Assembly: GCA_001599915.1 (NCBI GenBank)
Contig: BCIG01000008.1
Location: 1-64,000, forward strand
Direction: 5' to 3'
DNA length: 64,000 nucleotides
From: Symbiotaphrina buchneri
Taxonomy: Eukaryota; Ascomycota; Symbiotaphrinales; Symbiotaphrinaceae
Made by a program: the position numbers and the translations under genes. Shown here piece after piece: positions 26,744 through 51,232 of this stretch (position 1 is the first letter of the stretch; each line of letters opens with the position of its first letter). The notes under the pieces were generated by a model. The model made no database searches. It was given only the letters and a program-made list of their open reading frames with translations, and was not told where the DNA came from.

Positions 26744-27927
26744 TCATTGCTTCTCAAAAACCTCAACCGCATATCTAAACGAGCCATTCGCATAGCCTCT
26801 CCGCATCGCTCTAAACGCCTGTAAAAACGCCAGCCCATCTCTACCCTGCGAGATGGCAAACGCCCACAACGATGGATTCTGGATGAGTGACCATGAGATA
26901 TCCCTATATACACAATCCACGTTAGCAAAGAGCATACAGGTCGATAGAAGCGCGGTAGGATAAGCCTAGGGCAAAACGCACCATGTCTTCGCAACGTCCT
27001 TGCTGATATCAAATGGTTCGGCAAACACCTCAAATCCTGCGTCCCTGGCATACTGCACGTAGTCTGCCTGCGTGCACAGAGGCGGGAGCAGCATTCCGTC
27101 TAGTACACCAATTAGCTGCCTGTCCACTCGGACAATCCTGTTCCATCCGTACTTACCTTCAATGGGCCTGATATCCGCCTCCATCTGCTGCTGCGTCAAG
27201 CCCTCGGCCTTGAACCAATCCGCCACGACCAATTTCCCTCCTTTCCTCAGCAGCTTATACGCATTCCTAAAGAACAGCTGCTTATCCGGCAGATGGCTCA
27301 TCGCCTCGGAAATCCAGACGACATCAAAAACCTTCTTCACCTTGCCCTGCGCACCAAAAACCTCGCCCATCTTCTCCGCATCCATCTCCATGAAACTTAC
27401 ACTTCCCTCGCCCAGTCTAATCTCCCCAGCCAAATCCCCCTGTCCTTGCGAACTCCCCGCAACGGACTCTTTAACGCTCAAGCCGCGCGCAAGCTCCACC
27501 TGGCGCCCGCTGATCGTTATGCCGGTAACATTACACGCATGATTCTTCGCCAGGAACCTTGACGTGCCGCCCAGGCCGCAGCCAACATCCAGCACAGCGC
27601 TTCCGGGCGCGATGCCGGATCGCTCGATCATGAGCTTGATGAGGCGCGTCTGTGCGACTTCTTTGGTGTCGCTGGGGTCGGTGAAGTAGCCGTGGTGGAT
27701 ATGCTCGCCCCTGGATGGCTGGTGTCAGTGGGGCAGGTGCACAAGTTGTGGGAGAGGGGGCGAGGGGGGGAGAAGTACCAGAGCGAATAGTAGTAGTCCG
27801 AGGCGAGCTCGTAGTGCTTCTTTATGCGGTCCTTGAGAGCGCTGAAGGACGTGACGGGTTCTGGAGCGGGCGTCTCGTATTGGGCGCTGATCTCGTCGGT
27901 GGACGTGGCGGTTGAAGCTTCGGCCAT
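26744..27927 (-). CDS. SAM-dependent methyltransferase (UbiE/tocopherol-MT-like)
   Basis: Four exons with introns at 27711-27778, 27100-27156 and 26904-26981 give 326 aa. Start is MAEAST at 27927. The N-terminal motif HYELASDYYYSLWGEHIHHGYF is the entry of small-molecule C/O-methyltransferases such as gamma-tocopherol and sterol C24 types. Motif I LDVGCGLGGTS binds SAM, and DVVWISEAMSHLPD and GGKLVVADWF are motifs II/III. The middle intron is 57 nt with no stop, so retention would insert 19 residues; splicing restores PIEDGMLLPPLCT, the form seen in the family, so I treat it as an intron. Cytosolic, no TM. It shares a divergent 302-bp promoter with a caleosin and precedes the P450 on the same strand. 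Confidence 0.85.
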
Positions 27928-31427: not shown

Positions 31428-33188
31428 CTAATAGATATACCTGAACTTCTCGACGCCCTCCGGCAGCACAACCGTTTCCTCCGCGTCCCTCGCATCCATC
31501 TTCGCATTTTCCCGCCTCAAGATCGTTCTAAAGACCAAAGTCGTGGTAATGGCGAGCACGATTGCAATGGCCTCGACAGTGCAAGCCATCCAGTAGCGGG
31601 GCGACTGGTTATCCGGATAGATGTAGCCGGCGATGATATTGCCCAGCTGCGAGAGCATATTGACGAGCGCAATAGCCGCGGCCCGCTTGGCGGCGGGCCG
31701 GGGGATGCAGTTTGAGATCCAGGCTAGGTTGCAGTCGAAGGACTGATACGACAGTATCGCGTTAGCCACTATATGAGAGGGAGCAGGCAGATGGTGGGGC
31801 GACTTACGATGTAGACGAAGCAGGTGATCAAGAAGAGCGAGAAGTATCTGGCGCCGGTGTTGAGGCTGCTGGCGAGGATGATTAGGCCGACGAGCGTAAC
31901 GCAAAGCGTGCCGATCATGTGCCATGTCCGCTCCTTCTTGACATCCGCATGGTGACAGCCATACACCGACGTCCCGAACGCAAGGATATAAGGGGGCACG
32001 ATGAGCGCATACGTGATCTCACGGTTGAAGCCCAGCGTCCCAACAACAGTCGGATAGAAAACCACCAGGCCCGCGCCGACCGTAAGGCAGATATGGTTCC
32101 ATACCAAGAACCAAGTCTTATAGTCCTTAACCGCCAGCACGAAGCCTTCCCACATCGAGACATTGTTGTCGTCGGCCTCGCCCGCGTCCTCGATCAGCCG
32201 CCAGATGGCGACGGTGCGCTCCTCGCCCTTCAGCCAGCGCGTGTTGTGCGGGTAGTTGGGCAGCAAGAAGGCGGCGATGATGCTGAAGCCGCCCGACATG
32301 CACGCCTCGACGATGAAGAGCCAGCGCCAGGATTCGAGCCCGTGGTCGCCGTTGAGGTCTTGCGTGATGCCGAGCGCGATCAGAGAGCCGAAGGCGTTGG
32401 AGAGCATGTTACCGCCAAAGAGGATTGCGCACCGCATCGCCATCTCCTTCCGCGTGTACCAACTTGACAGCATGAAGATGGCACCCGGGAAGAAAGGGGC
32501 TTCGACGATGCCTAGGAAGAAGCGCACCGCCACTAGACCGCGGTAGCTCTGCACGGCGGCTGCACAGCCAGATACGACGGACCAGATGAACATCCACCCG
32601 GACTGCACCAATTTCCATTCAGCATTGTGATGGAAACAATGTACATGAGAGAAGACTTACAAGATACAGCGACGGCCTTGTCTTGGACAACATCAGATTG
32701 GACGGGACCTGGAACAAACAATACCCGACATAGAGAATACTGAGGCACGTCGCAAACTGCGTCGAGCTGAGGTTCAGATCCTTCTGGATGCCCACGATCT
32801 TTGCGAAACTGAGCGCGTTGCGGTCTAAATAGTTCAGTATATAATTACAAGGACGGGGATGCATGCATGCGGGACAGGTGTCGAATAACGAAAAATACAT
32901 GTCTCTTGTTCTGGACGATGACAACATAACATCAACGGAGGACATACCTATATAATTCAATATGTAAAATGCCAGAAGCATGGGAAAAAGGAAGCAGTCG
33001 ATCTTGCGTTTGACGCGCTTCTCGATCTCGACGCGCCGCTCGGGAGGGATGGCGGTTACGGCCGCGAGGAGTTCGGGATCGACGCCCCGGGGCAGGATGG
33101 ATGCGGTTGTGGTGGTGCCGGCGGCGGCCTGCTTCTCGCTGCTGCTGGCGCCCGAGGCGGAAGTGGTCTTCTCGATCTCGGCGGACAT
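31428..33188 (-). CDS. MFS transporter, anion:cation symporter (Dal5/Tna1-like)
   Basis: Four exons with introns at 32825-32947, 32603-32660 and about 31769-31803 give about 514 aa. The last donor is weak (GTCGCC); the nearby GTAAGT would break the frame, so this junction is uncertain. TM1 leads to the hallmark LNYIDRNALSFAKI. Next are GYCLFQVPSNLML, VRFFLGIVEAPFFPGAIFMLSSWYTRKEMA (split here for length: FFLGIVEAPFFPGA and SSWYTRKEMA) and FIVEACMSG, all typical of the ACS family. Members import allantoate, nicotinate, pantothenate, biotin or other organic anions at the plasma membrane. It is divergent from RidA and part of the RidA/amine-oxidase/amidase block; likely the uptake step of that block. 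Confidence 0.88.
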
Positions 33189-33936
33189 CTTGACGGGGGG
33201 TATCTGTCCGTCTGTGAATGGGATGAGGTCTAGTGATTGCTAGAGCAAAGACCCGCAAGAGTGGTTCAGTGACGGAAGATCGGGTGTCTGATGTAGAGCC
33301 GTCGTCTGGAGACTAGGAGTAGCAGGGGTCTCTTATATTCACCTTCTCCGAGACAATCTCCAACAAAAACACCGAGGAAGAAGGGGTAGGCGATTAGAAA
33401 TAACAAATCTGGCCCCATGAGTAGGAGCCCCGCAACCTCCCTTGTCTAGCTCACTGAACCATCTCTTATCATGCTTATCAGGACGTGCATATCAGCTTTT
33501 GGCCGGTGTTTCGTGCTAGACTGGTGTCAGTTTGGATGTGGAGAAAGATCTTCGGCGGTGCGCCGTTTCGGTATTTCGGAGTTTGGACGGTTTGAGATCT
33601 TGGAGATATGAGATGGGCCGTGATTGGCCGATATTCCGAAATACTGATGAGAAAACGCCGAGGCTGGGGCTCCGGCCGGTGATGCCCCAACACCACCAAG
33701 GCAGTAAACATTGGAGATGGATCGAGGCTGTTGTTACTCTCCGATGCGGCCCTAGCAAGGCCGAGACCTTGGTCCGATTCGGGGTTTTCTCTTGAGAAAG
33801 CTCAATCGATTTTCAGTGATCCTCTCTGCCCCGATCAAAGAATACAGGAAACCTGATTGATCCCTTTCTCTTCCCTCTCTCTCCACGTCTATTCAATCTA
33901 ATCCAACAACCACCTAAAACAAAAAGGAAAATTAAA
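33189..33936. promoter_or_regulatory. Divergent promoter of MFS transporter and RidA
   Basis: 748 bp between two divergent ATGs. It contains the element CGGTATTTCGG at 33569-33579 and a facing half site TCCGAAATAC at 33635-33644. Together these make a 10-bp inverted repeat around a 54-nt spacer. The same element recurs in the amine-oxidase/amidase promoter. Confidence 0.6.
33569..33579 (+). promoter_or_regulatory. Candidate Zn2Cys6 site CGG-N5-CGG
   Basis: CGGTATTTCGG, a direct repeat of CGG with 5-bp spacing. It matches CGGCATTTCGG at 38838 and 38893 except for C/T at one base. It lies about 360 bp from the RidA start and 380 bp from the transporter start. Binding by the regulator at 34523-36655 is inferred from the zinc-cluster preference for CGG triplets. 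Confidence 0.5.
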
Positions 33937-34424
33937 ATGTCTTCCCTCCAACTCCTCAACCCCTCCGCCGTCGCCCCCTCAGGCCCCTTCTCCCACGGAC
34001 TGGTCATCCCACCAGGACACAAAATAATCTACACAGCCGGGCAAATCGGCACCAGTGACGCCCAAGGGACCATCCCCGACTCCTACGAAGAGCAAGTCTC
34101 GTGCGCCGTGCGGAACCTCGGTCTGGTTCTCAAGGAGGCCGGAGCGGGCCCGAAGGATATCATCAAGTTGACTTATTATATCGTTGATTATGGTGAGTGC
34201 TGCTACTCTTGCTGATGCTGGGTAGCTTGAGTGAAAGGGGAATTGGGGCTGACGGAGGGTCTGGGGCAGATGTGTCAATTCGGATGGTACATATTAATGC
34301 GTTGACGGCGTTTTTGGACGGGCATAGACCGGGCACGGCGTTGATTCCGGTGCCGAAGTTGGGGAATCCGAAGTTGAAGTTTGAGATTGAGGCGGTGGCT
34401 GCTGTGCCGGCTTCTAAGCTATAA
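33937..34424 (+). CDS. RidA/YjgF/YER057c family imine deaminase
   Basis: Two exons with an intron at 34193-34269 give 136 aa, the usual length. The N-terminal PSGPFSHGLVI is followed by IIYTAGQIGTS, the family's core strand and loop. The middle part is EEQVSCAVRNLGLVLKEAGAG, cut here: AVRNLGLVLKEAG. The third part is IIKLTYYIVD, and the end GTALIPVPKLGNPKLKFEIEA has the conserved Glu near the C terminus. RidA proteins form trimers and hydrolyse reactive imine/enamine intermediates to carbonyls and ammonia; some subfamilies differ in function. The usual Arg105-type residue is not obvious here (PVPKLG where xVxxLP occurs), so the activity subclass is unsure. It is divergent from the transporter and three genes from a flavin amine oxidase. 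Confidence 0.88.
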
Positions 34425-34522
34425 GCCCAGATGGAGGTAGAACAGGGATGTAGCTAAAATGCAGCCCTGAAGCATCGACATAATGCAAAACGCAAAAAGC
34501 TTCAAGCCGATATCAAGAGCCA

Positions 34523-36655
34523 TTACTGTGTCCAAATAAATCCCAGTTCCCCACCGAGATTATCCAACCTCACATTAGCCAAAGGATCGTTCCAGTACAT
34601 GGCCGCCCACTCATCGTCTCCAGCTACCCAGCCGTTACCAGCACCATAGCTGAATCCGCCTGGCGCAATATTGCTAAACAAAGCCGTCCAATCCATCTCC
34701 TGACTCCCCACCACATCTCCCTGCTCCCTCGCGCCCAGATCCTGCCCCAGAGTCCCAAACGCCGACTCCACGCTCTCCGGACTCGTCTGCAGGACACTCG
34801 GCGACGTCTGCGGGGCATTCGCGCTCTGCTCAGTCTGTCCCACTTTCAGCGCACACTGCTGCAACAGGCCACTCGCATCCTCAAACAGCCGCAGGATACT
34901 CGTCGCCACCAACCAGTGCCGCGCCAGCTCTCGCAGGCTATACAAGCTGCTATCGAACTTCTCAAGCGCGCCTAGAGCTAGGATGGGGGACTGCGACCGC
35001 ATCTCGACGGAGATTTGAAGCATCGCTGCGAACAGGCTGGCGGGTGCCCAGCACGGCAGGTGGCGGAGTAGGTCTTGCTGCCGCAGGTCTTCGAAGATGT
35101 GGATGATGGCTGCGGCGGCGTTGAGGCAGATGTCGGAGTCGGAGGGGCCGTAGGTGTCGAAGTGTGGGTGTGGGTGTATAGAGGAATCAGGGTTTGGTGG
35201 GAAGCTGCTGTCTCGACGCCGAGGACGGTGGAATAGTAGCAGCGCGGTGTGATATGTGAGGTGCAGTATTGCGGCCCATGGGCTGACTTGAGTACTTCCC
35301 GGCTTGAACCGAGTGCGCAACTGTTCAGGCAGGTGGATCAGCCATTGCGCCAGCTGTTTATCCGCTGCGTCAAGACAGGCCCGCCGCGTTGCATTGCTCG
35401 ACTTGCTGGCACGGACACTGAAGTTCGTCCGAATAATGTCAGCAAGGAGGACGCAGAGCTTGGAATGTTCCGCCAGGAAGGACGACTCCGCAGGATGCAG
35501 GCAACCCTCAAAATCGGCGGGCTCCAGCACCGGCACGTCGGTATCATCCATGTTGATCATCAGTGGTCGCCCGTAGCTGAGAGAAACCAGAATGTCGAAC
35601 TGCACGAGTGTCCACCAGATGCGCTTCCACAGGCGTTTGTCACCTTCTGGCATTTTGGATGGCAGCACGTCCCTGTGCATTCCGAGCCCAATGGCCGCCC
35701 TGGTAGCTGCACCGATCCAATACCATGCATTTGCACAGACGTCGTCTGCGCCGTCTGATACCCACGTTAGTAGAATCGCCGCCTGTACCATGGTCATGCG
35801 GTCCTCTTCGTAGCGGCCGTCGAACAGAGCCTTTGCACGGCGAAAGAGCGCTGCTTTCAGCGCATGCGTGTTGGGAAAAGTGTTGTTAACATGGGTACCT
35901 ACCAGGCACACAGATTGCAGGAGTAGAATTGGCGGGCACAAGCCTGGAGTATTATACTCCTGCATAAAAGCCGCCTCATCAATGATGGGCAGCCCGGGAG
36001 CAATCTCCTCAAAGAAATTCGCGATCAGGACATCGCTGATGTGGCGCGGCGGCAGGACGAAAGCATCCTTCGGGATAAGATTCGGCGTCGCAGGGGGTTG
36101 AGAGTTGACGAAGAGGCGGGGAGCGGAGATGCGGCTGCACGGGTAGTGCACGACGTCTTCGTCGGCGGTGGACGGCGACTCCTTCTGCCGCACCAGATAG
36201 TGCAGGTTTGAGAGCTCCGTGCCCACATACGTAGACCGCGCGCGGATGGGGTTCCGTCGTAGGTCCTGCCGGAAGAACTCGATGAGATGCTGCTTTGCTA
36301 GCTCGTGGTCCCCGTCGACGTTGGTCGATGCTGCGGGGGTAGGGATGTCGTTCACGGCGGTGGGATTCGGCACGTTGTCTGAGATGGCCATGCCATGGCT
36401 ATGCCTGGCTTCGGCCGTGGGTCCAGATGAGGCATCCAGGGGCTTCGGTGCTATTGATTGCGCCCTCGTTGCTCTTTTCTTCCTTGCAGTGACGCTGCAG
36501 TCGACGTTGGCTGCGCGGCAATTGCTACATGGAAAGCCCGACGCCGCGCCGTCGCAGCGGACTTTGCGGATGTGGCATGCGCGGCAGGCCCTCCCTGTGC
36601 TCTTGCGGCGAGGTGTAGGTATTGCCAGAGGTCGTTGGCTTTGTTCTTGGTCCAT
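34523..36655 (-). CDS. Zn2Cys6 transcription factor, CTF1/Far-like
   Basis: Intronless, 710 aa. The zinc cluster CRACHIRKVRCD...CSNCRAANVDC lies at about residues 24-53, followed by a basic stretch ARKKRATRAQ. The fungal-specific transcription-factor domain covers about residues 150-480. It includes NFFEEIAPGLPIIDEAAF, the GLHRD-like MHRDVLPSKMPEGDKRLWKR (cut: GLGMHRDVLPSKM and RLWKRIWWTLVQFD) and LSYGRPLMINMDD. The C-terminal region is Ser/Gln-rich with acidic patches. The cluster sequence resembles cutinase-factor/Far-type regulators. Nuclear. It sits between RidA and the amine oxidase, so it is the prime candidate for control of this block through CGG-N5-CGG sites. Confidence 0.9.
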   Translation of the reverse strand: MDQEQSQRPLAIPTPRRKSTGRACRACHIRKVRCDGAASGFPCSNCRAANVDCSVTARKKRATRAQSIAPKPLDASSGPTAEARHSHGMAISDNVPNPTAVNDIPTPAASTNVDGDHELAKQHLIEFFRQDLRRNPIRARSTYVGTELSNLHYLVRQKESPSTADEDVVHYPCSRISAPRLFVNSQPPATPNLIPKDAFVLPPRHISDVLIANFFEEIAPGLPIIDEAAFMQEYNTPGLCPPILLLQSVCLVGTHVNNTFPNTHALKAALFRRAKALFDGRYEEDRMTMVQAAILLTWVSDGADDVCANAWYWIGAATRAAIGLGMHRDVLPSKMPEGDKRLWKRIWWTLVQFDILVSLSYGRPLMINMDDTDVPVLEPADFEGCLHPAESSFLAEHSKLCVLLADIIRTNFSVRASKSSNATRRACLDAADKQLAQWLIHLPEQLRTRFKPGSTQVSPWAAILHLTYHTALLLFHRPRRRDSSFPPNPDSSIHPHPHFDTYGPSDSDICLNAAAAIIHIFEDLRQQDLLRHLPCWAPASLFAAMLQISVEMRSQSPILALGALEKFDSSLYSLRELARHWLVATSILRLFEDASGLLQQCALKVGQTEQSANAPQTSPSVLQTSPESVESAFGTLGQDLGAREQGDVVGSQEMDWTALFSNIAPGGFSYGAGNGWVAGDDEWAAMYWNDPLANVRLDNLGGELGFIWTQ

Positions 36656-37008
36656 TTACTTGGTTATTGCGGTCACTTCTCGGTGATGGTGCTTATGGCG
36701 GTTATGGAGGTGGGTCAGGATGGTGGAAGGTGGGGGTTACATAGAGCTTGAAGAGAGTTTACGCTAACGACCTCCAAGGCTCCAACTTGCAGCGCGGAAC
36801 AGCTACGTTCATTGTCTCTATGGCAAAGCCTAGAGCAGGATTGCTTCATTATCTGACCTTTCAAGCATGTCTCGAATGATACAAGCATATGACAGCCCTT
36901 TTGAATATAATGACAACGGTCTAATGACTTTAGAATATAGGAAATGCTAGAATGCTAGATGCTATTTTGCCCTACGACCCACGCTGCCATGAAGCTTCTG
37001 CGCCCCAG
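36656..37008. promoter_or_regulatory. Promoter region of the CTF1-like regulator
   Basis: 353 bp between the amine-oxidase stop and the regulator start. CGG triplets occur at 36670 and 36681 (11-bp spacing), not the 8-bp spacing seen in the target promoters, so autoregulation by the same site is not supported. AT-rich from 36890. Confidence 0.4.
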
Positions 37009-38556
37009 TCACAACCTTGAGCTGATCTGTTCCTGCCCCCTAGCTCCTTGTTTGCCCACCCCATCCCCAATATCCAGCACAGACACATCACCCTTCCTCC
37101 CCTCAGCAGCAAGCTTAGCCTCAACCTCCCTGGCAGCTCTCTGCCCGCTCGTGACCGCACCATCCATATATCCCTTCCACTCAAACGCCGTCTCCGTGCC
37201 CGCAAAATGGCATAAACCCGCCGGTTCCCTCAAAAACCTCCCTAACCTCGTCATAACACCCACACCCATAACTGGGCTAGGCGCGCCCTGGCTGAACGGC
37301 TCATGGATCCACTCCTGCTCGAAGACGTGGGCAGGGGTCTTTGCGCGCTCGTCGTTGAACATGGTCGCGACCTGCTCGATAACCCGGCGCCGGCGCTCGT
37401 CGGCCGGAAGAGCGGACCATTGGCGCCCGGGCCCGCCGACGATGAAGCATGTTATTGCGTGCACGGTCAGGTGCGGCTGGCCGGGGGGACCGGAGGACGT
37501 GTCCCGGCAGACGACGAAGGGGCCTTTGAAGGATTGCGTGAGCCCGCATAGGCCGGCGTCTTTCCAAAAGGGATGGTCGTAGACAAGAGTCATCTTCAGC
37601 TGCGTTAGTTGACTGTCTCGCCCCTGTTTGTAGAAACAAGGACTTACCTTTGAATAGTACCCGAGCTCGGTCTTGTTGCTGAGCTCGAGCTTCCCCTTCG
37701 GGAGCTCGGGTTGCCATTGAATCGTCTTGTAAAGCGGCGTGGGAATCGTGCATATTAATCTCTTTCCATTGAACTCCGCGCCATCCCACAATACCACCTT
37801 GCACACGCCCTTCTTCTCGTTCTGCGCAATCTTCTTGACCGGGCTGTTTAATCGCACACTGCCCGGGGGCAACCTCGCCGCCAGGCCATTTGCAATAGGC
37901 TGGGTGCCCTGTTTGATCCGCAGCGCCTGCGAACCATCCGCACGATCGGAGCGCAACGCGGCCAGCGAGCCGCCGGAACGCATGTAGTCGAAGAAATACA
38001 GCATGCTCATAGCTTCGGGCTCGACGCCGAACATGATACGTGACCAGAGCGTCAATGTATCTTTGGTCATCTGCGTCTTCGCATACTTCTCCGCAAACGT
38101 CCTGACATTCAGGCTATCCCAGTACTTGGCATCCTTGAGGGACGCCGGGTCTCGGAGGTCAATCTGCGCGGCTTTCTCTTCGATCAATGCTCGGATGGCA
38201 GTGATGTCCTCGAGCTCTGCGGCGGTGATGGGCCATGGCTCGCCGTAGGGGAAGGGCTTTGTGCTCCCGTCGGCGCGCTGCAGCAGACAGTTCCCGTCCG
38301 TGTTCTGAGGGAAGAGTTCCAGCCCAAACTGCTTGGCGAGGTTGGAGATGTTCGGCTGCGTCGTCTCGTTGACCCAGGCGCCGCCCAGGTCGAGTGTGCC
38401 GTCCTTGTGGTCGATTGTCCAGGTCTTGCCGCCGACGCGATCTCGTGCCTCGAGGACAAGCACGCGGCGACCGGCTTTGTTGAGCTCTGTCGCGGCGCTG
38501 AGGCCAGAGAGGCCGGCGCCTATTATGAGCACATCATAAAGGTCTTTTGTAACCAT
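37009..38556 (-). CDS. Flavin-containing monoamine oxidase (MAO-N-like)
   Basis: Probably two exons. A 48-nt stop-free intron (37600-37647, GTAAGT...GCAG) would, if removed, give 499 aa and restore YYSKLKMTLVYDHPFW; retained, the frame stays open at 515 aa. The N-terminal dinucleotide motif IIGAGLSGLSAATEL and VLEARDRVGGKTW bind FAD. LGGAWVNETTQPN resembles the MAO substrate-domain start. C-terminal FAGTETAFEWKGYMDGAVTSG is the second FAD-contact motif. No Cys at the covalent-flavin site, as in fungal MAO-N. It oxidises amines to imines with release of H2O2. The C terminus RL lacks a clear peroxisomal SKL; QISSRL ends in SRL, which does fit a PTS1, so peroxisomal location is likely. Neighbours are the regulator and amidase. 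Confidence 0.9.
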   Translation of the reverse strand: MVTKDLYDVLIIGAGLSGLSAATELNKAGRRVLVLEARDRVGGKTWTIDHKDGTLDLGGAWVNETTQPNISNLAKQFGLELFPQNTDGNCLLQRADGSTKPFPYGEPWPITAAELEDITAIRALIEEKAAQIDLRDPASLKDAKYWDSLNVRTFAEKYAKTQMTKDTLTLWSRIMFGVEPEAMSMLYFFDYMRSGGSLAALRSDRADGSQALRIKQGTQPIANGLAARLPPGSVRLNSPVKKIAQNEKKGVCKVVLWDGAEFNGKRLICTIPTPLYKTIQWQPELPKGKLELSNKTELGYYSKVSPCFYKQGRDSQLTQLKMTLVYDHPFWKDAGLCGLTQSFKGPFVVCRDTSSGPPGQPHLTVHAITCFIVGGPGRQWSALPADERRRRVIEQVATMFNDERAKTPAHVFEQEWIHEPFSQGAPSPVMGVGVMTRLGRFLREPAGLCHFAGTETAFEWKGYMDGAVTSGQRAAREVEAKLAAEGRKGDVSVLDIGDGVGKQGARGQEQISSRL

Positions 38557-38837
38557 GATGAAAAGGTCTGGTAGTGATTAATCCGAGATATCCAGTTGAT
38601 CAATGGTATAACAGGTGGACGATGAGAAATTTATAGATATGGCAATCGCCCCTTGTGTGAGAACGGTGGATCTGGGTAAGGCCACTATTGACCAACAGTG
38701 AGAATCATTCAGGACTGGGACAGATACCAGAGCTCTATTCAAGAGCCATGGCGTGGATCCACAATGGGCATATTGCCATTGGATGGTGTCCCTGGAATAG
38801 TTGTGTATAGCGCTCCAGTGCGTGCATCTCCCTGCTC

Positions 38838-38856
38838 CGGCATTTCGGCGCTTCGG
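38838..38856 (+). promoter_or_regulatory. Triple CGG with 8-bp period
   Basis: CGGCATTTCGGCGCTTCGG: CGG at 38838, 38846 and 38854, each 8 bp from the last. It may bind two overlapping regulator dimers. It lies about 280 bp from the amine-oxidase start and 330 bp from the amidase start. Binding is inferred. Confidence 0.5.
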
Positions 38857-38892
38857 CATTTTAACATTTCGACCTCAGGAGAAAGCAGCACT

Positions 38893-38904
38893 CGGCATTT
38901 CGGC
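38893..38904 (+). promoter_or_regulatory. Second CGGCATTTCGGC copy
   Basis: Exact 12-bp repeat of the site at 38838, 55 bp downstream on the same strand. This spacing is close to five helical turns, which would put both sites on the same DNA face. Confidence 0.5.
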
Positions 38905-39188
38905 AAGAAGACCACCACCAGAATCCAAGGAAGACTCCGAAGGATGGGTGCCAAGGCGCGGTTGTACCGTCGGCTGATAACAAGTAACAAGCGCGATAAC
39001 CCTTGTATTGCCGATGAAGCGGAGATACCGTGGAGGACGTGCTTTATCTGCCAGCCAGGGTCCTTTGTATTGACTCAAGGCACGAGACCACGGGGAGAGA
39101 TCATACAGCCCCTTTGAGACGCTAAAGACGGATCTGGCTGTTTGCACATACGTCTCCATCTTCCCGATATCCACTGCTATCTGCCGGC

Positions 39189-41033
39189 ATGGAGACCTCT
39201 GAGAAAGAATGGGAGCAAATAGCTGCTGTGAGTCTCTTGTGGTGTCCTCAAAACCAAGAAGGAACCTGACCTGTGCATACTCCAGAAAGTCAAAACAGAG
39301 CAATCATCCAAGATCCCCTCATCCTGGCTCCTCCCAGCCTCCATCCTCAGCCGTTCCGACAAAGACGTGACCTCCATCCCCGCCGAAAGCGGGATCCTCA
39401 CTGCGCATGAACTCGCCATCACCGAGACGCCCGACGCCACCGCTCTCCTCTCCAAAATCCACTCCGGCTCACTCAGCGCCGAAGAAGTGACCGTCGCATT
39501 CTGCAAGCGCGCCGCCATCGCACAGCAGCTCGTCAACTGCCTGACGGACACGGCCTTCGACGCCGCCATCGTCGAAGCCAGAGCCCTCGATGCCACCTTC
39601 AAATCCAGCAATGGCCAGCTCAAAGGCCCGTTGCATGGGTTGCCCGTCAGCATCAAAGACCACGTCAACGTCGCCGGCCTGCGCAGCACCCTCGGCTACT
39701 GCGCGCTGGCCGACAACAAGCCCAGCGAGGACGCGGTGCTGGTGCAGGCTCTGCGGGCCGCGGGCGCCATCGTGTTCTGCAAGACGACGATGCCGGCGAC
39801 GGGCATGGCGATCGAGACAGTGTCAAACCTCTGGGGCCGGACGCTGAACCCGCATAACCGCTTGCTCGTGTCTGGAGGGTCATCAGGCGGGGAGGGCGCG
39901 CTGGTGGCGATGCGCGGCAGCCTGATGGGCATCGGGACGGACATCGCAGGCTCGATCCGCGTGCCGTGCGCGTTCAACGGCATCTACGGCATCCGGCCTA
40001 GCACGCGCCGGCTCAGCTACGCGGGTATCACGAGTAATGTGCGCGGCCAGCTGGCGATCCAGGGCGCGATTGGCCCGATGTGCCATAGTGTCCGCGATGT
40101 GGAGTTGGTGTGCAAGGTCGTGACGGATGCGGTGCCTTGGGAGTATGATGTTAATGTGGTGATGAAGGAGTGGTCCCCCCGGCCGGCATTGCCGAAGAAG
40201 TTGACGGTGGGCGTGATGCGCTGGGATGGTGTGGTGATGCCGCATCCGCCTGTGTTGCGAGCGCTAGATGAGACGGTGAAGAAGCTCAAGGCAGCTGGGC
40301 ATGAGGTTGTCGAGTTTGAGCCGTACCAGCATCAGCGGTGCTGGGATATCGCCTACCCGCTATACTATGGTACGGGCGGCAAAGAAATGGGGGAGCTACT
40401 GGACAAGACCGGAGAGCCGTGGCCGAAAGCTGCGTACAAGCTGAGTCGAAACCCGAGCGTGCGAGAAAAGACTGTAAAGGAGCTGTTTGATGTATATTTT
40501 CCCTTTCATCTAACACCCTTCTCCATGGAACGGTATGGCTGAATTAACGATGGACAGTTACATGCGGCGCGAGACGATTACAAAATGGAGTATCTCAAGC
40601 ACTGGAATGCGACAGCCAAGAAAACACAGAGCGGCCGGCAGATCGACGCTTTGCTATGTCCTATCAACCCGTGTGCCAGCTACCCTCATGACCATCTAAC
40701 ATGGTGGGGATACGCGGCGCAATGGAATCTGCTGGACTACCCCGGGGTGATCCTCCCGTTTGGATTCGTGGATCAGGAGGTGGACCGCAAGGATTCAAGT
40801 TATAAGCCAGTCAACGAAACAGATCAGGAGAATTATGATCTATGTAAGTTCCTAGACCTTTCTCGGGTTGATGGAGTGGTCGGACTTGGCGCAGCAAGAG
40901 CTGACAAGCTACAGATGATCCGGAGCTATGGCATGGAGCACCTATATCTCTGCAGCTCGTTGCGAAGACATTTGACGATGAACGTTTACTAGCGGTCACT
41001 GCGACTATTAGTGAGGTCATGCAAGCTCATTAG
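39189..41033 (+). CDS. AmdS-like amidase
   Basis: Four exons with introns at 39228-39285, 40492-40557 and 40844-40914 give 549 aa. The start METSEKEWEQIAAK is encoded by a 39-nt first exon. The amidase-signature triad is visible: Lys in VSIKDH, Ser in SGGSSGGEGA, and nucleophile Ser in DIAGSIRVPC. EVTVAFCKRAAIAQQLVNCL matches the acetamidase/general-amidase subgroup. The last exon encodes DPELWHGAPISLQLV, the family's closing motif, which confirms the 3' end. It hydrolyses a carboxamide to acid and ammonia in the cytosol. Divergent from the amine oxidase with shared CGG-N5-CGG sites, so a nitrogen-source role in the block is likely. Confidence 0.92.
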
Positions 41034-44890
<3,857 letters not shown>

Positions 44891-45691
44891 GACGGTGGAT
44901 CTCCTCTGTCATACATGAAGGCATTATCGGGTAATATGTATGATCTATTCATGACGGCCGGGTATGTGATCCTCCACCACGATGAGGCTGTCAACGATCG
45001 GGCTGAGTAGTTGAATTAGCTGCAAAGAAATCTTTTTAACGTGAACTCCGAGAAAATCAAAGAGTGATTCGGTTTTGGCAGTCCGACTAGCCAGGAACTT
45101 GCTGCAGTGATCGAGCCATTGTGGTGTGACTCCTCTTTCATCTTTGAATCTTTCTTCTTACATGACGCAAAGTCAAAGTCTACTTCGGACGCCTGCCTAT
45201 GGCTGTGAAAGCTAGTAAGGGCACGATCAATACCCATTGAGCCGAATCTTTACGATCAAGGCACAGTGACGTGTGTTTGAACACCCTCATGCACGCTCGC
45301 CGGATGTTCGAGATAATTAGGCCGACTAACTTCCCACACCGTCTTCTCCAGATATGTTCCGGTAGAATGACGATGGCTGTACCCCCACGCCATACTTTTA
45401 CCCGCGGGAAATCGGCCAGAAGATCACCTTTAGTTCCTCAAAGGCACTCCTGTCAAATTATCTGGCGGTCAATGTATGGCGAACATTGTGGACTAAATGT
45501 TTTTAACCGGCGTAGAAACGGCTTCTCTCTGGCTTTATCCGGGTTTAGCCTCATACCCCACCTCTCTTGTTGAGCTTAAATTTAAGTCTGGGGTAGCTAC
45601 CACAGTCCCGCAAGTAATAAATACACCCCCAGAGTCTTCACTTCGGAGGTCGAGAAGCCATACTCCAGTACAGTCTGGAAAGCCAGCCAAG
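44891..45691. promoter_or_regulatory. Promoter region of GH35 gene
   Basis: About 0.8 kb. An in-frame extension upstream of the GH35 ATG runs back to 45497 but lacks sense for a secreted enzyme. AATAAATACAC at 45617-45627 is TATA-like, about 70 bp before the ATG. CTGGGG at 45587-45592 fits the carbon-repressor CreA consensus SYGGRG, a common and weak match. Confidence 0.45.
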
Positions 45692-48600
45692 ATGAAATTC
45701 TCTCAACTTCTGGTTGGGGTTTGGAGCGCCATTTGCGTTTTAGGGGTGACCGCTGCAGTCCCACCAATTAAATCCCGACAAAGTCTTCTCCAAGACATCG
45801 TGACATTCGATGAGCACTCATTGATGATCCGAGGAGAAAGACTATTCATTTATTCCGGCGAATTTCATCCTTTTCGTCTGCCTGTACCAGATTTGTGGCT
45901 TGAAGTCTTCCAAAAGATCAAAGCACTCGGATTCAATGGCGTTTCATTCTATGTTGACTGGGCTTTGGTGGAAGGACAACCAGGTGTGGTGAACTTCGAC
46001 GACATTTGGGACCTGAAGCCCTTCTTTGACGCCGCTTCCCAAGCCGGTATATATTTGATCGCCAGACCCGGGCCCTACATCAACGCTGAGGTTTCGGCCG
46101 GTGGGATCCCCGGTTGGGCTCTACGGATCGGATGTACGCTACGATCGACCTGCCCTGAGTGGGAGCAGGCGACAGTGAACTACCTTCAAAGCGTGGGAAA
46201 AATCATTGCAGACGCGCAGATCACCAATGGCGGACCTGTTATCTTGGTGCAGCCGGAGAACGAATATAGCACTTGGCCCAACCTCAATGCGACCCAGTTT
46301 CCAAATCAGATGAACCGGGAGTACATGGCTTTCGTTGAGCAGCAACTGCGAAGCTCTGGAATTATAGTCCCTTTCATCGACAATGACAATGAAGTACGTG
46401 GCAGCTTTGCGCCCCATACGGGCCTCGGAGCGGTCGATCTCTACGGCATCGACGCCTATCCCATACGGTACGATTGCGCGCATCCGTCAGTCTGGCCGAC
46501 TTACGAGTGGCCCACCAATTGGCAGTTGACGCACGAGCAGCAGAGCCCTTCCACGCCATTCGCCATTCCTGAATTCCAAGGCGGGACGTCGACATCCTGG
46601 GGCGGCGTGCCTCAGGACATGTGTGCTGCGCTGGTTGGACCAGAAGCGTTGCGCATTTTCTACAAGAACAACTATTCTTTCGGGGTCAAGCTGCTCAACA
46701 TCTACATGGCCTATGGCGGCACAAACTGGGGGAATCTCGGATACATGGGAGGTGATACGTCCTATGACTATGGTGCCGCGATCAATGAATACCATGAGGT
46801 ATCTCGCGAGAAGTATAGCGAGCAAAAGCTGCAAGCAAATTTCTTCAAAGTGTCTCCGGCATACTTGACAGCTACAGCTGGGAACCTCACGAACGGGACA
46901 TACGCGGATACCATGCAAGTGGGCACTACTCCGCTGTACGGAGACCAGGGAACCAACTTCTACGTTGTCCGTCAAGCCAATTTCTCGTCAACGTCTACCG
47001 CAAATTACAAGATAACTCTTGAAACGTCAACAGGGGATGTTACGATCCCGCAGCTTGGGGGTCAGCTGTCTCTCATAGGACGGGATTCTAAGGTGATGGT
47101 CACGGATTACGACATTGGAAGTGCGGTGCTCGTTTATTCGTCTGCCGATATCTTCACTTGGGCGCAGGCTGCCAATGGAAAGACCGTTCTCATATTGTAT
47201 GGGGGCCTTGGAGAGACCAACGAGTTTGCTGTACGTTCGAATACCACGACGTGTACTACCTCTGGTGGCACTCTTCAGACGTCACAAAGCACGTCGACGG
47301 AGTGGATTGTGCAGTGGACGGTGGTCCCTGATACACAGATTGTGTACTTCGAGGACATCAATCTGGAGGTTCGTCTTCTATGGCGCAACGATGCATACAA
47401 CTACTGGGTCCTGGAACTACCTTCGCCAGACCCGGTTGGGAATTTCTCCTCGCCGTCAAAGTCATCCGTTATCGTCAACGGGGGCTACCTACTTCGAACA
47501 GCAAGCATAGAAGGGACAAACCTCCAGCTTACCGGAGATTTCAACGCCACCATCGAGCTGGAGCTGGTTTTTGAACCAACAGGTCTTGTACAGACGATGA
47601 GCGTGAATGGCCAGACGTTGAGTTGCTCATCTCCTCCAAGCATTACCGGGACATTCGCCTACGAACCACCTTCTCTCGACCTTCCCGATTTCTCGCAGAG
47701 TACTTGGAAGAGCATTGATTCTCTACCCGAAATCCAGCCTGGCTATGATGATTCTCTGTGGACGCAGTGCAATCACCTGAACTCCACCAATGATCAACGT
47801 AGCCTACAGACGCCAACCTCTCTCTATGCCTCCGACTACGGGTACCATACTGGCTCACTGCTCTATCGTGGCCATTTCACTGGCAATGGACAGGAGTCCT
47901 CATTGTTTCTACACACGTCAGGTGGTTCAGCATTCAGCCACAGTGTCTATCTCAATTCCACCTTCCTCGGCTCCTGGATAGGATCGAATAGCAACCAGTC
48001 CTATCCCCAGACACTGGCTATCCCCCAGAGTCTAACTGTCGCAGGAGAACCGTACGTTCTCACCATCCTCATCGACGACATGGGCCAGACGGAAGAGGCA
48101 CCCGGTACCGATACTATTAAATTCCCCACAGGCATTCTTGGCTACTCCCTAGCAGGACACGCGGCGGGAGATATCTCCTGGAGGATGACGGGCAACCTCG
48201 GCGGAGAATCGTACGTCGACAAAACGCGCGGCCCTCGTAACGAGGGCGCCATGTTCGCTGAGCGTCAAGGCTTCCATCAACCCAGCCCACCGAGCAGCAA
48301 CTGGTCGGCGTCCAGTCCCATATCGGACGGGCTTGCGGGGCCTGGGGTCGCGTTTTATACAACAACATTTGATCTGGATCTACCAAGCCAATATGATATT
48401 CCCATGGCATTCACGTTCACGAATAATACGGGCAGCTCAGGTCCGTACCGTGTCCAGTTATTTGTCAACGGGTACCAGTTTGGCAAATTTATTCCTTACT
48501 TTGGCCCGGAATTCTCGTTTCCGGTCCCGGAGGGTGTACTCAATTATGCTGGATCTAATACTCTTGCCTTGACACTGTGGGCCTTGGAGAGCAGTGGCGC

Positions 48601-48709
48601 AAGACTTGGAGGCCTGAAATTGACTGCTAGTACCGCGGTGACGAGAGGTTTCAAGGCACCAAGTCTAAGCCCTCAACCGGCATGGCAACCTAGGGTTGGA
48701 GCTTATTAG
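45692..48709 (+). CDS. Secreted beta-galactosidase, GH35
   Basis: Intronless, 1,005 aa when started at MKFSQLL, the size of Aspergillus LacA-type enzymes. A longer frame begins at 45497, but only this ATG is followed directly by a signal peptide (residues 1-21, LLVGVWSAICVLGVTAA). The TIM barrel starts IYSGEFHPFRLPVPDLW and contains ARPGPYINAE. Acid/base Glu is in VQPENEYS and nucleophile Glu in IPEFQGGTSTSWGG. GTNWGNLGYMGGDTSYDYG follows, then beta-rich domains with many N-x-S/T glycosylation sites. The sequence departs from LacA, so it is one of the family's paralogues. It acts outside the cell on galactans, galacto-oligosaccharides or lactose. Tandem with GH2. Confidence 0.94.
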   Translation: MKFSQLLVGVWSAICVLGVTAAVPPIKSRQSLLQDIVTFDEHSLMIRGERLFIYSGEFHPFRLPVPDLWLEVFQKIKALGFNGVSFYVDWALVEGQPGVVNFDDIWDLKPFFDAASQAGIYLIARPGPYINAEVSAGGIPGWALRIGCTLRSTCPEWEQATVNYLQSVGKIIADAQITNGGPVILVQPENEYSTWPNLNATQFPNQMNREYMAFVEQQLRSSGIIVPFIDNDNEVRGSFAPHTGLGAVDLYGIDAYPIRYDCAHPSVWPTYEWPTNWQLTHEQQSPSTPFAIPEFQGGTSTSWGGVPQDMCAALVGPEALRIFYKNNYSFGVKLLNIYMAYGGTNWGNLGYMGGDTSYDYGAAINEYHEVSREKYSEQKLQANFFKVSPAYLTATAGNLTNGTYADTMQVGTTPLYGDQGTNFYVVRQANFSSTSTANYKITLETSTGDVTIPQLGGQLSLIGRDSKVMVTDYDIGSAVLVYSSADIFTWAQAANGKTVLILYGGLGETNEFAVRSNTTTCTTSGGTLQTSQSTSTEWIVQWTVVPDTQIVYFEDINLEVRLLWRNDAYNYWVLELPSPDPVGNFSSPSKSSVIVNGGYLLRTASIEGTNLQLTGDFNATIELELVFEPTGLVQTMSVNGQTLSCSSPPSITGTFAYEPPSLDLPDFSQSTWKSIDSLPEIQPGYDDSLWTQCNHLNSTNDQRSLQTPTSLYASDYGYHTGSLLYRGHFTGNGQESSLFLHTSGGSAFSHSVYLNSTFLGSWIGSNSNQSYPQTLAIPQSLTVAGEPYVLTILIDDMGQTEEAPGTDTIKFPTGILGYSLAGHAAGDISWRMTGNLGGESYVDKTRGPRNEGAMFAERQGFHQPSPPSSNWSASSPISDGLAGPGVAFYTTTFDLDLPSQYDIPMAFTFTNNTGSSGPYRVQLFVNGYQFGKFIPYFGPEFSFPVPEGVLNYAGSNTLALTLWALESSGARLGGLKLTASTAVTRGFKAPSLSPQPAWQPRVGAY

Positions 48710-49284
48710 ATATATTACAATATAATTCCCTTGTCTACAGTTGTTATCATCAAGAAGGGAGTGATCAAGTGGTCACCTGCCCCGGTCGTAGCCCTTATCA
48801 GTCTTGTGTCAAAACAGGCCACACGCTCCAGTCTCGGTCTCGGATTATTACCCCGGTCTTATGCTCGGCTTGAGGTCCGGGACATTGAAGGGTCTGCAAC
48901 AAATGTATATCGGCCGCTGATGGTGTACGCACGTTAACTCTGTTAGACATGGTCTTACCGGTATCCCCACTTACTTTCCGCAAGACCTTATCTCTGCCCA
49001 ATGTAATCCTTGTCATCATTCGTACGATAGGCGCTACCTGATGGACCGATCCAACCGAACTGCGTATTCTGGAACGATAACCCCCCTCATGATCATTACC
49101 AGGTAAAGCCAGCGGCACATGCTGGCTGCTGTCGATTAAGACCCTCTCAGATGATGTGCATTTAAAGATATGCGGAAGCCGCATTGTTTTGATTTCTTGT
49201 AAAATGTGCCACCGAGGTTACACTTTCTTGGAATCCAGAAGTTTTGACGGGATTTCACTGGCCTGAAACTTACAGAAGAACAAG
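48710..49284. promoter_or_regulatory. Promoter region of siderophore-type MFS gene
   Basis: 575 bp. GATA cores occur at several places (for example CGATAACC at 49076 and AAGATATG at 49167). GATA factors of the SreA type control siderophore genes, but single cores are common by chance. Confidence 0.35.
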
Positions 49285-51232
49285 ATGGTCGCTCCTGAGA
49301 GCATCCAGACGGAGACTCCCTCTAAGGGTATCACTGACCAGCCAGTTCGTGAGGTCGGCAATGTAGACGGTGTCGCTTCCCAGGATCTCGAGGCCAATGA
49401 GAAATCTCTTGTTGCCCCCGACACACCAGAACCCGGTGTTGCCAACGTCGAAGCGCTGCAAGCCGTTTGGAGCAAGAATGGAAAGCGACTGTTGATCGTA
49501 GGGTAGGCTTCTGATCACTCCATACAGACAGGAACAGACTAGATAACACATGCGCAGAATCGCGTTGATGATGATCATCTACGAACTAGATAACTCCACC
49601 GTCTACGTCTACAACAACTACGGCACGTCCGCCTTCTCCGCCGTGTCCCTACTCAGCACACTCAGCACCGCCGGCACGATCCTCTTCGCCGTCATCAAGC
49701 CGCCCATCGCCAAGATCTCCAACGTGATCGGGCGCGGCGAAACATACTGCATCACCATATCCTGCTACGTCCTCTCATACATCCTGTTCGCCTCGTCGAA
49801 GACCATCGACGCCTACGCCGCGGGTTACATCATCTACACGATCGGGCAGTCTGGCACGAACATCATGAACGACATCATCATCAGCGACATCTCGAGCGCC
49901 CGGTACAGAGCCCTGGCCATCGGCATCTCCTTCTATCCGTACCTCGTCATTCCGTGGATCTCGGCGTATATCACCGCCAGCGCCGTGTCTGGCATCGGCT
50001 GGCGGTGGGGCATTGGCATGTTGGCCATCCTGATGCCGTTCTGCGCGAGCATGATCATCACCACCTTACTCTACTACCAGCACCGGGCGAAGAAAGCCGG
50101 CATAGCCGTCCGGAACCGCGTTTCCGTCTACGAGTTCTGCTCGCTCATCGACCTCGGCGGCACGATTCTGCTCAGCGGCGGCTTCGCGATGGTGCTGATC
50201 CCGCTGACGCTCGCTGCGACGACGCCAGCGAGATGGTCGACTGGCTGGCTGGACGCGCTGATCGCCATTGGCGCCGCGTTTCTGCTCGCGCTGCCTTTCT
50301 ATGAAAAATACCTCGCCAAGCACCCCGTTGCCCCCTTCCGCTATTTCAAGCAGCTCTCAATCGTCATGTCGTGCCTGCTGATTGCGACGGACTCGATCGG
50401 CTTCTCCGTCACGCATACATATCTGTATACGTGGATCACGATTGCGCATAATTACGGCACCACGGATGCCACGTTCTACACGTACACGAACGGCGTGACG
50501 CAATGCCTTTTCGGGATCATCTCCGGCCTCATAATGTTGAAGACGCGCCGCTACAAATGGCTGCTCATGGGCGCCGTCGTGATCCGACTGATCGGCTACG
50601 GCGTCATGATGCGGCTGCGCGGGGCGCATAATTCGATGGCGGAGCTGTTCATCGTGCAGCTGATCCAGGGCATCGGCTCGGGGATCATCCAGACGGCCGT
50701 CATCGTCAGCGCGCAGATCGTCGTGCCGCATTCCGAGCTGGCGCAGATCACGGCGCTGGTCTTGTGCTGTTCCTTCCTCGGAAGCAGTATCGGCGCTAGT
50801 ATTGCTGGTGGAATATATACTAATACTTTGAAGAGCGAGCTGTATAAGGCGCTGGGCAGTGGGGCTAGCCAAACCCTCGTTGACACGGTGTATGATAGTA
50901 TAACGGGCGTGCTTCCGGCCTGGGGCAATGTGGAGAGGAATGCGATTGATACGGCTGTGAGTCCAATTGCTCCTTTTGTCCCGTGGGTTTCTGTAACGCC
51001 AGCTAATTTCTGTGTTGCAGTATACTAATGTCATGAGATACATGACCTATACTGCCTTTGGCTCGTGTATCCCTTCATTCGTCTTCGTCTGGCTTTTGCC
51101 GGACCTGATTCTTCCGTAAGTCTGCATGGCCATCCTTTGCCAGTCTCCGCGCCTGGGAAGGTTTTCACGGACCCGACGTACGTTACGCTAATGCCTCATC
51201 TTATGTCCAGGGACTCCCAGAACGCGCTATGA
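49285..51232 (+). CDS. Siderophore-iron transporter family MFS (Sit1/MirB-like)
   Basis: Four exons with introns at 49503-49557, 50957-51020 and 51116-51210 give 577 aa. The last exon is only 22 nt; it replaces a stop (CCG TAA) with PDSQNAL, matching the family's closing LGDTQN-like segment. After a 60-residue acidic tail, VWSKNGKRLLIVGIALMMIIYELDNSTVY starts TM1 (cut: GKRLLIVGIALMMIIYELDN). Fourteen TM segments follow, with ISDISSARYRALAIG, WRWGIGMLAI and PVAPFRYFK at the expected places. Members import ferric siderophores by H+ symport at the plasma membrane; a few exchange glutathione. No siderophore synthase is near. It follows two beta-galactosidases but is unlikely to carry sugar. Confidence 0.87.

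Follow-up and report, generated by a model that had tools for sequence, protein, structure and literature searches.

The window, a stretch of 64,000 nucleotides from Symbiotaphrina buchneri (positions 1 to 64,000 of contig BCIG01000008.1, here C8), carries five contiguous genes at 31428-41033, encoding a transporter, a Rid-family protein, a regulator, an amine oxidase and an amidase. The five genes are present where an earlier note on this DNA placed them: open reading frames and Pfam profiles showed all five genes to be intact, with Pfam scores above the cut-off for each protein. Splice sites were picked by hand from GT..AG candidates and the reading frame. The genes and their divergent promoters are as follows:

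31428..33188, (-) strand: MFS permease, ACS/Dal5-like; 504 aa; introns 32825-32947, 32603-32660 and 31743-31807; PF07690
33189..33936: divergent promoter MFS/Rid; CGG-N5-CGG at 33273(+), 33569(+) and 33628(-)
33937..34424, (+) strand: Rid-family protein without Arg105 (Thr108); 136 aa; intron 34193-34269; PF01042
34523..36655, (-) strand: Zn2Cys6 regulator; 710 aa; intronless; PF00172 and PF04082
37009..38556, (-) strand: MAO-type flavin amine oxidase, stand-alone; 499 aa; intron 37600-37647 (48 bp, in frame); PF01593
38557..39188: divergent promoter oxidase/amidase; CGG-N5-CGG at 38838, 38846 and 38893 (all +)
39189..41033, (+) strand: amidase-signature enzyme; 549 aa; introns 39228-39285, 40492-40557 and 40844-40914; PF01425

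The divergent pairing of Rid with the transporter (748 bp ATG to ATG) had been singled out before; it is present, but the oxidase and amidase form a second divergent pair (632 bp). The neighbours outside the set, a caleosin, a WW protein and two beta-galactosidases, are unrelated, and the set itself contains no carboxylesterase. An aldehyde dehydrogenase is likely missing near the cluster, as had been noted: none of 16 genome matches to PF00171 lies on C8, a likely rather than proven absence because 11 of 28 candidates were scored.

Five NCBIfam transporter models matched the permease, all below their cut-offs. Its ACS type is putative; a relative, P0172 (72% identity over 288 aa), is labelled ACS family, DAL5 by its source. 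ACS/Dal5-like permeases usually serve uptake. The amidase scored 363 bits against PF01425 and carries Lys137, Ser212/Ser213 in GGSSGG and Ser236, which we take to be the catalytic Lys-cisSer-Ser motif of the amidase signature; its second-best solved match was a fatty acid amide hydrolase. The oxidase scored 231 bits against PF01593, and by sequence the best solved structure was a bacterial monoamine oxidase, followed by MAO-A/B. The MAO-type residues Lys305 and Tyr447 are kept (also in 118/118 and 108/118 relatives, respectively). The covalent-FAD Cys position is Ala409, with Cys in 99/118 aligned relatives, and the first aromatic-cage Tyr is Pro in the window oxidase and in 107/118.

With 67.8 bits against PF01042 (cut-off 27.3), the Rid protein belongs to the Rid superfamily. 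The position of Arg105 (S. enterica numbering) is Thr108, which rules out a canonical RidA. Thr also occupies this position in the Rid domain of a Rid-oxidase fusion encoded on contig C19 of the same genome, and Arg was found there in 0/14 database stand-alone rows and 0/105 fused rows (entries with both PF01042 and PF01593; P0142 and P0153, without PF01042, were left out). All 121 rows (window, C19, 14 stand-alone and 105 fused) are thus non-Arg, while in the control the same column held Arg in YabJ and in 67/78 bacterial rows. The Glu120 position was kept, as Glu124 in the window protein, in C19, in 14/14 stand-alone rows and in 103/105 fused rows. With NCBIfam model TIGR00004 (cut-off 106.25 bits) the window protein scored 46.2 bits, and two canonical bacterial RidAs scored 173 and 178. 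This score does not track the Arg, because two distant bacterial Rids that carry it also fell below the cut-off, with 42.4 (a fragment) and 56.8 bits. The Thr and the TIGR00004 score leave the claim of a RidA with imine hydrolase activity unsupported.

In about 10% of RidA proteins Ser is said to replace the Arg, and Arg-less Rid subfamilies have been called mysterious (PMC4433059). According to the available text of PMC4433059 and PMC8113886, the Arg-less Rids tested so far had no deaminase activity, Rid7 of S. enterica and the RutC variant R104A being inactive; for this reason imine hydrolysis by the window Rid is something we only infer. The five genes could form a real unit in which the Rid is not an imine hydrolase and instead serves as a scaffold, a channel lid or a flavin- or product-binding subunit, or acts on another intermediate. 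This reading, which we regard as unlikely though it carries real weight, draws on the 121 rows without Arg, the inactive bacterial proteins and the score far below the TIGR00004 cut-off. However, the Glu120 position is nearly always kept, the recurrent partner enzyme makes imines, and the Arg-less proteins assayed, as far as these sources describe them, were bacterial, and their substrates were aminoacrylates or imines derived from amino acids rather than from amines.

The Rid and oxidase families also occur together in two-domain proteins. With a joined Rid and oxidase query, 105/120 matches listed were fusions of PF01042 and PF01593, with the Rid domain first and the oxidase following. As in the window, the fungal fusions examined (such as P0045 and P0049) combine the same two families and likewise lack the Arg; they differ in that the window oxidase is stand-alone and of another branch. 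The model of P0045 (pLDDT 89.2, pTM 0.81) gave structure matches of which the 50 shown were all flavin amine oxidases; it matches the same solved monoamine oxidases as the window oxidase does. In the surroundings of the C19 fusion (569000-602000), no amidase or ACS-permease relative was found. In the tree the window oxidase grouped with P0117, at a point where long branches meet, which calls for caution in reading this grouping. Reading it as a cluster-resident fusion that has been broken found no support, given this grouping and a frame that begins at the FAD domain.

At least two of the close relatives of the permease, Rid and amidase were linked in seven other ascomycetes, judged by nearby locus tags or contigs of equal size, and an eighth showed loose linkage only. 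By locus tags, linked sets were found in Capronia epimyces (amidase A1O3_04907, MFS 04910, fusion 04911), a genome with LTR10 locus tags (fusion LTR10_022199, MFS 022200, amidase 022202), Phialemonium (Rid 10306, MFS 10307), Exophiala xenobiotica (MFS LTR99_002546 and amidase 002550; Rid LTR41_004426 and fusion 004429) and E. oligosperma (amidase LTS17_011622, MFS 011625). By contigs of equal size, they were found in Niveomyces (Rid, fusion, MFS and amidase) and Sarocladium (Rid and amidase). Four of the seven sets also contain the Rid-amine oxidase fusion. The MFS shared 67-81% identity with relatives in six other cluster-holding fungi, the Rid 81-82% with the stand-alone Rids of Phialemonium, Exophiala xenobiotica and Niveomyces, and the amidase 68-72% with relatives in five cluster holders and 61% in Sarocladium. 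In the five nearest cluster sets, permease, Rid and amidase reached 67-82%, whereas the window oxidase and the cluster-resident fusions shared 42-44%. The window oxidase is not orthologous to these fusions, so the substrate may differ between clusters.

Because these relatives are linked in seven other ascomycetes, we consider the five genes to be a real unit, judging from sequence. Chance neighbours without joint function, a reading to which the unrelated caleosin, WW protein and beta-galactosidases lend something, are hardly credible in view of the recurring linkage and the fusions. Linked in clusters and fused elsewhere, Rid and oxidase are coupled, and the tie between Rid and amine oxidase function drawn by the earlier note stands. 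Its suggested comparison of gene neighbours turned out as predicted for linkage in relatives, but the nearest named holders were Phialemonium, Exophiala and Niveomyces, and neither Aspergillus nor Penicillium was among the named matches of 39 Rid matches. The holders are scattered patchily across classes. Arg-less Rids are fused to or co-clustered with an imine-producing enzyme in many ascomycetes, whereas Rid subfamilies besides RidA are said to be prokaryote-only in the available text of PMC5619798 and PMC8113886.

A regulator belonging to the cluster, as had been proposed, is plausible on two grounds. Both divergent promoters contain CGG-N5-CGG, three sites each; the total was reached in 6/2000 shuffles over 63 forms, the motif having been noticed by eye before the shuffle test. 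These shared sites are candidate regulator sites with moderate confidence. The looser CGGNNNTTCGG has 8 sites in the window, 4 of them outside the cluster, and exact 8- to 12-mers common to both promoters showed no enrichment. The second ground is that the C19 fusion has a paralogue of the Zn2Cys6 regulator about 5 kb away. The paralogues at C2, C13 and C4 have mixed Pfam neighbours, with no oxidase, amidase, ACS-permease or Rid match in 19.8-kb stretches. GATA (AreA-type) sites numbered 2, 1 and 4 in three upstream regions (2.67, 2.83 and 6.33 per kb, respectively); the density across the window is 2.27 per kb, and the comparison is not decisive.

Taken as one pathway, the genes fairly probably form a catabolic cluster with its own regulator, directed at an anionic compound that bears an amide or amine. 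This compound would enter through the ACS/Dal5-like permease, the amidase would cleave the amide to the free amine, and the MAO-type flavoenzyme would convert the amine to an imine and H2O2. The Arg-less Rid would receive the imine and speed its release as a carbonyl compound and ammonia, and the Zn2Cys6 protein may switch both divergent pairs through the CGG-N5-CGG sites. The idea of one pathway is kept from the earlier note for the linked, coupled set; its RidA step is unsupported, and the amidase is likely better placed before the oxidase, which makes more chemical sense. Imines of plain amines have no alpha-carboxylate, and a Rid that has lost the carboxylate-binding Arg would suit them. 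We tentatively propose, at somewhat short of an even chance, that a clade of Arg-less Rids in filamentous fungi are dedicated monoamine oxidase partners, fused or co-clustered, which hydrolyse amine-derived imines carboxylate-independently, by a mechanism of which we have met no description among Rid proteins. Through the association with the oxidase, Arg-less Rids gain a specific candidate function that can be assayed simply, and the cluster would be a regulated pathway whose substrate growth tests could find.

The same enzymes could instead detoxify a long-chain amino alcohol or other toxic amine from competing fungi or plants, the oxidase yielding a ketone and the amidase removing an N-acyl group. 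Fungal fumonisin amine oxidases, likened here by description, are a precedent: those of Exophiala spinifera and Aspergillus niger are described as deaminating fumonisins, whether hydrolysed or intact, and yielding keto products (PMC9415688, PMC9726736). Exophiala species are among the cluster holders, fatty acid amide hydrolase is among the solved amidase relatives, and a primary amine on a secondary carbon would give a ketone, which would explain the missing aldehyde dehydrogenase. In addition, the E. spinifera enzyme is about 600 aa long and extended at its N terminus. The absent carboxylesterase and AnFAO, which at 54.1 kDa looks from its description like a stand-alone oxidase, speak against this reading, which is distinctly unlikely. 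That the genes tailor a secondary metabolite is more improbable still. The Zn2Cys6-type regulator, the patchy spread across classes and the upstream cytochrome P450 (24757-25587) and methyltransferase (26969-27724) frames would suit this; however, no backbone synthase was seen in the window frames scanned (19/31 and one more, not every gene), and the permease is ACS/Dal5-like, a kind that usually serves uptake. A nicotine route was rejected: the A. oryzae nicotine paper (PMC6346535), in its available text, names an FAD amine oxidase and amidases as induced, and no such gene set.

Compared with known systems, we found no published description of the five-gene set or of the Rid-amine oxidase fusion, judged by titles and abstract openings, in line with the earlier remark that it was not known as a unit. 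Catabolic clusters that include a Rid gene are already on record (PMC4433059, PMC7842363). A fungal 3-hydroxyanthranilate cluster likewise holds a Rid-family putative 2-aminomuconate deaminase, with neither amine oxidase nor amidase named in the available text (PMC7842363). RutC of the E. coli rut operon, also a Rid protein, is described as speeding one deamination that would also proceed spontaneously, in a pathway that scavenges nitrogen; unlike the Arg-less window Rid, it depends on its Arg104 (PMC8113886). In the bacterial Rid/FAD amine oxidase clusters of Niehaus 2015 (PMC4433059), Rid adjoins the oxidase as here and was proposed to clear the imine; those proteins are RidA or Rid3, said to bear Arg, whereas the protein here is a eukaryotic one with Thr, and some of its relatives are fused. 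A MAO-like neighbour was present in 9/78 bacterial Rid loci, all nine sphingomonad-type and all nine Rids with Arg. Among bacterial loci with an Arg-less Rid, the nine nearest (L035-L043) showed no MAO-like frame at E 1e-8 in flanks of up to 6 kb on each side. As a substrate clue these loci were set aside, with no common neighbour in a weak test (20 long frames from 7/9 loci, Pfam families for only 10, several wrong-frame). In one of them, L037, an amidase lies 3.3 kb from the Rid.

The five genes that the earlier note had claimed at 31428-41033 are real and intact, and their ends match the claimed limits exactly. They are arranged as MFS permease (-), Rid (+), Zn2Cys6 regulator (-), amine oxidase (-) and amidase (+), an order that creates two divergent promoters:

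33189-33936, between MFS (-) and Rid (+)
38557-39188, between oxidase (-) and amidase (+)

The oxidase intron at 37600-37647 is 48 bp long, a multiple of three and free of stop codons; a mechanical ORF call therefore runs on across it and gives 522 aa. One flank of the cluster carried a caleosin and a WW-domain protein, and on the other lay two beta-galactosidases, of families GH2 and GH35, and an MFS protein; both flanks look unrelated to the five-gene set. The latter three genes are consecutive at 41611-51025, directly adjoin the amine set and look like a galactoside-use cluster. A homogentisate 1,2-dioxygenase frame was observed at 11367-12653 on the minus strand.

Linkage outside the S. 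buchneri genome (23.4 Mb, 82 contigs) was read from locus tags and longest-contig sizes in protein-search records. The Rid search gave 39 matches from 82 candidates, the joined Rid and oxidase query 303 from 7999 scored, and the joined amidase and MFS query 1838 from 7998 scored, with the best 120 listed for each joined query. By these three queries, which covered Rid, oxidase, amidase and MFS, linked sets were found in seven genomes, none of them displaying the full set of five.

Linked relatives of the cluster genes (fusion, two-domain Rid-amine oxidase protein)
Capronia epimyces: amidase A1O3_04907, MFS 04910, fusion 04911 (locus tags); stand-alone Rid not found among matches
LTR10 (Elasticomyces elasticus or an Exophiala, as sources write): fusion 022199, MFS 022200, amidase 022202 (locus tags); stand-alone Rid not found among matches
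Exophiala oligosperma: amidase LTS17_011622, MFS 011625 (locus tags)
Exophiala xenobiotica: MFS LTR99_002546, amidase 002550 (locus tags)
Exophiala xenobiotica, another strain: Rid LTR41_004426, fusion 004429 (locus tags)
Exophiala xenobiotica: Rid P0002, amidase P0170 (common contig size 3,833,114)
Phialemonium thermophilum: Rid VTK73DRAFT_10306, MFS 10307 (contig of 6,231); fusion P0072 listed on a different contig
Niveomyces insectorum: Rid, fusion, MFS, amidase (all list contig of 1,341,862)
Sarocladium implicatum: Rid, amidase (both list contig of 3,475,877)

Talaromyces verruculosus was an eighth, looser case, with Rid ZTR_03424 and MFS ZTR_03405 both on 604,709 and amidase ZTR_09124 on a separate contig. 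Identity to the window Rid was 81-82% in Phialemonium, E. xenobiotica and Niveomyces and 66% in Sarocladium and Talaromyces; the MFS showed 67-81% across six genomes (Talaromyces 59%), and the amidase 68-72% across five (Sarocladium 61%). The proposal that the five genes form one unit was borne out by the linkage of two or more of MFS, Rid and amidase in seven genomes. The coupling of Rid with amine oxidase was borne out as well: by a count over the list, 105 of the 120 listed Rid and oxidase matches are fusions in which PF01042 occurs with PF01593. The Rid domain was profile-confirmed in 105/105 of them.

The best solved matches of the window oxidase were bacterial MAO and MAO-A/B, and the AlphaFold model of fusion P0045 (pLDDT 89.2, pTM 0.81) also matched flavin amine oxidases. 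At positions whose roles we presume from MAO-B, the window oxidase keeps Lys305 and Tyr447, has Ala409 for the covalent-FAD Cys (kept in 99/118 relatives) and, like 107/118 relatives, has Pro for the first cage Tyr. A quick tree was built from 72 proteins out of the 120 listed, the window oxidase and the C19 fusion of S. buchneri (74 rows in all; about half of the fusions omitted; tool warning of long branches). In it, the cluster-linked fusions P0045, P0047, P0049 and P0052 formed one branch and the window oxidase paired with P0117 in another. Among the listed matches, the window oxidase was 42-44% identical to these four and at most 47% to any fusion; identity to the stand-alone oxidase P0117 was 61% over 326 residues. 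For both P0117 and the Rid P0025 the longest contig is listed at 16,738 bases, and unfused oxidase and Rid genes may therefore be neighbours outside the window as well. Five metagenome proteins with PF01042 only (P0018, P0019, P0021, P0028, P0031) have the source name monoamine oxidase, probably because reference fusions bear that label.

An ordinary RidA, as the earlier note had assumed, was not what we found. Thr108 of the window Rid occupies the column of Arg105 (S. enterica RidA numbering), the C19 domain also has Thr, and Arg was found in 0/14 stand-alone database Rids and 0/105 fusions; Glu120 was kept in 14/14 and 103/105, respectively. The 14 were taken from the 39 matches, the remainder being mostly fragments or mis-spliced copies. 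As an alignment control, YabJ and 67/78 bacterial rows had Arg in the same column; the nine closest bacterial kin of the window Rid did not. In the S. buchneri genome, an 800-aa open frame at C33:184787 (L006), with a Rid-like stretch and, by eye, a seeming ATP-binding N-terminus, is presumably a diphthamide synthase.

Passages of PMC4433059, PMC5619798 and PMC8113886 state that Rid deaminase activity requires Arg, so the window Rid would be either deaminase-inactive or different in its mode of action. Because Rid is recurrently fused to an imine-making enzyme, we infer, and favour, a different mode of action rather than inactivity. A passage of PMC4433059 puts the share of RidA proteins with Ser in place of Arg at about 10%, so the Arg-less clade may lie inside RidA itself. 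Separately, nine sphingomonad-type bacterial loci (L060, L089, L093, L097, L100, L101, L106, L110, L111) have a MAO-like frame no more than 6 kb from a distant Rid that carries Arg, with 10 bases between the two open frames in L106. On a Rhodospirillales contig (L037, 4101-4484 and 7766-9241), an Arg-less Rid has an amidase-family frame 3.3 kb off on the opposite strand.

In the proposed pathway, the amidase would convert an amide to an amine and the oxidase the amine to an imine, which would finally yield a carbonyl; the amidase acting before the oxidase makes chemical sense. According to PMC9415688 and PMC9726736, Exophiala spinifera and Aspergillus niger have amine oxidases that convert fumonisins to keto forms by deamination. 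Fumonisin-type deamination to a keto product is one specific substrate lead, and such a product, if true, would also explain why an aldehyde dehydrogenase may be missing.

The motif CGGNATTTCGG had 3 sites in the window, all within the two divergent promoters (0.13 expected; 0/100 shuffles reached 3), and 49 genome-wide (reversed control 26). Of the 8 window sites of the looser CGGNNNTTCGG (2.63 expected), 4 lay beyond the cluster limits. CGG-N5-CGG occurred three times in each divergent promoter and was not found upstream of the regulator; with 63 spaced CGG-pair forms considered, its total was reached by 6/2000 shuffles and three in both promoters by 1/2000. It is moderate evidence on cluster regulation, because it was spotted by eye before the statistics and exact k-mers of 8 to 12 common to both promoters were not enriched.

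A true fusion gene was found in the S. buchneri genome at C19 582946-585067 (L021). One of the four nearest regulator paralogues, a Zn2Cys6-type frame at 590035-592392, lies about 5 kb from it; the other three had no such neighbour, and no amidase or ACS-permease relative was found in the C19 stretch. By eye, a D-amino-acid-oxidase-like frame adjoins this fusion at 580994-582354.
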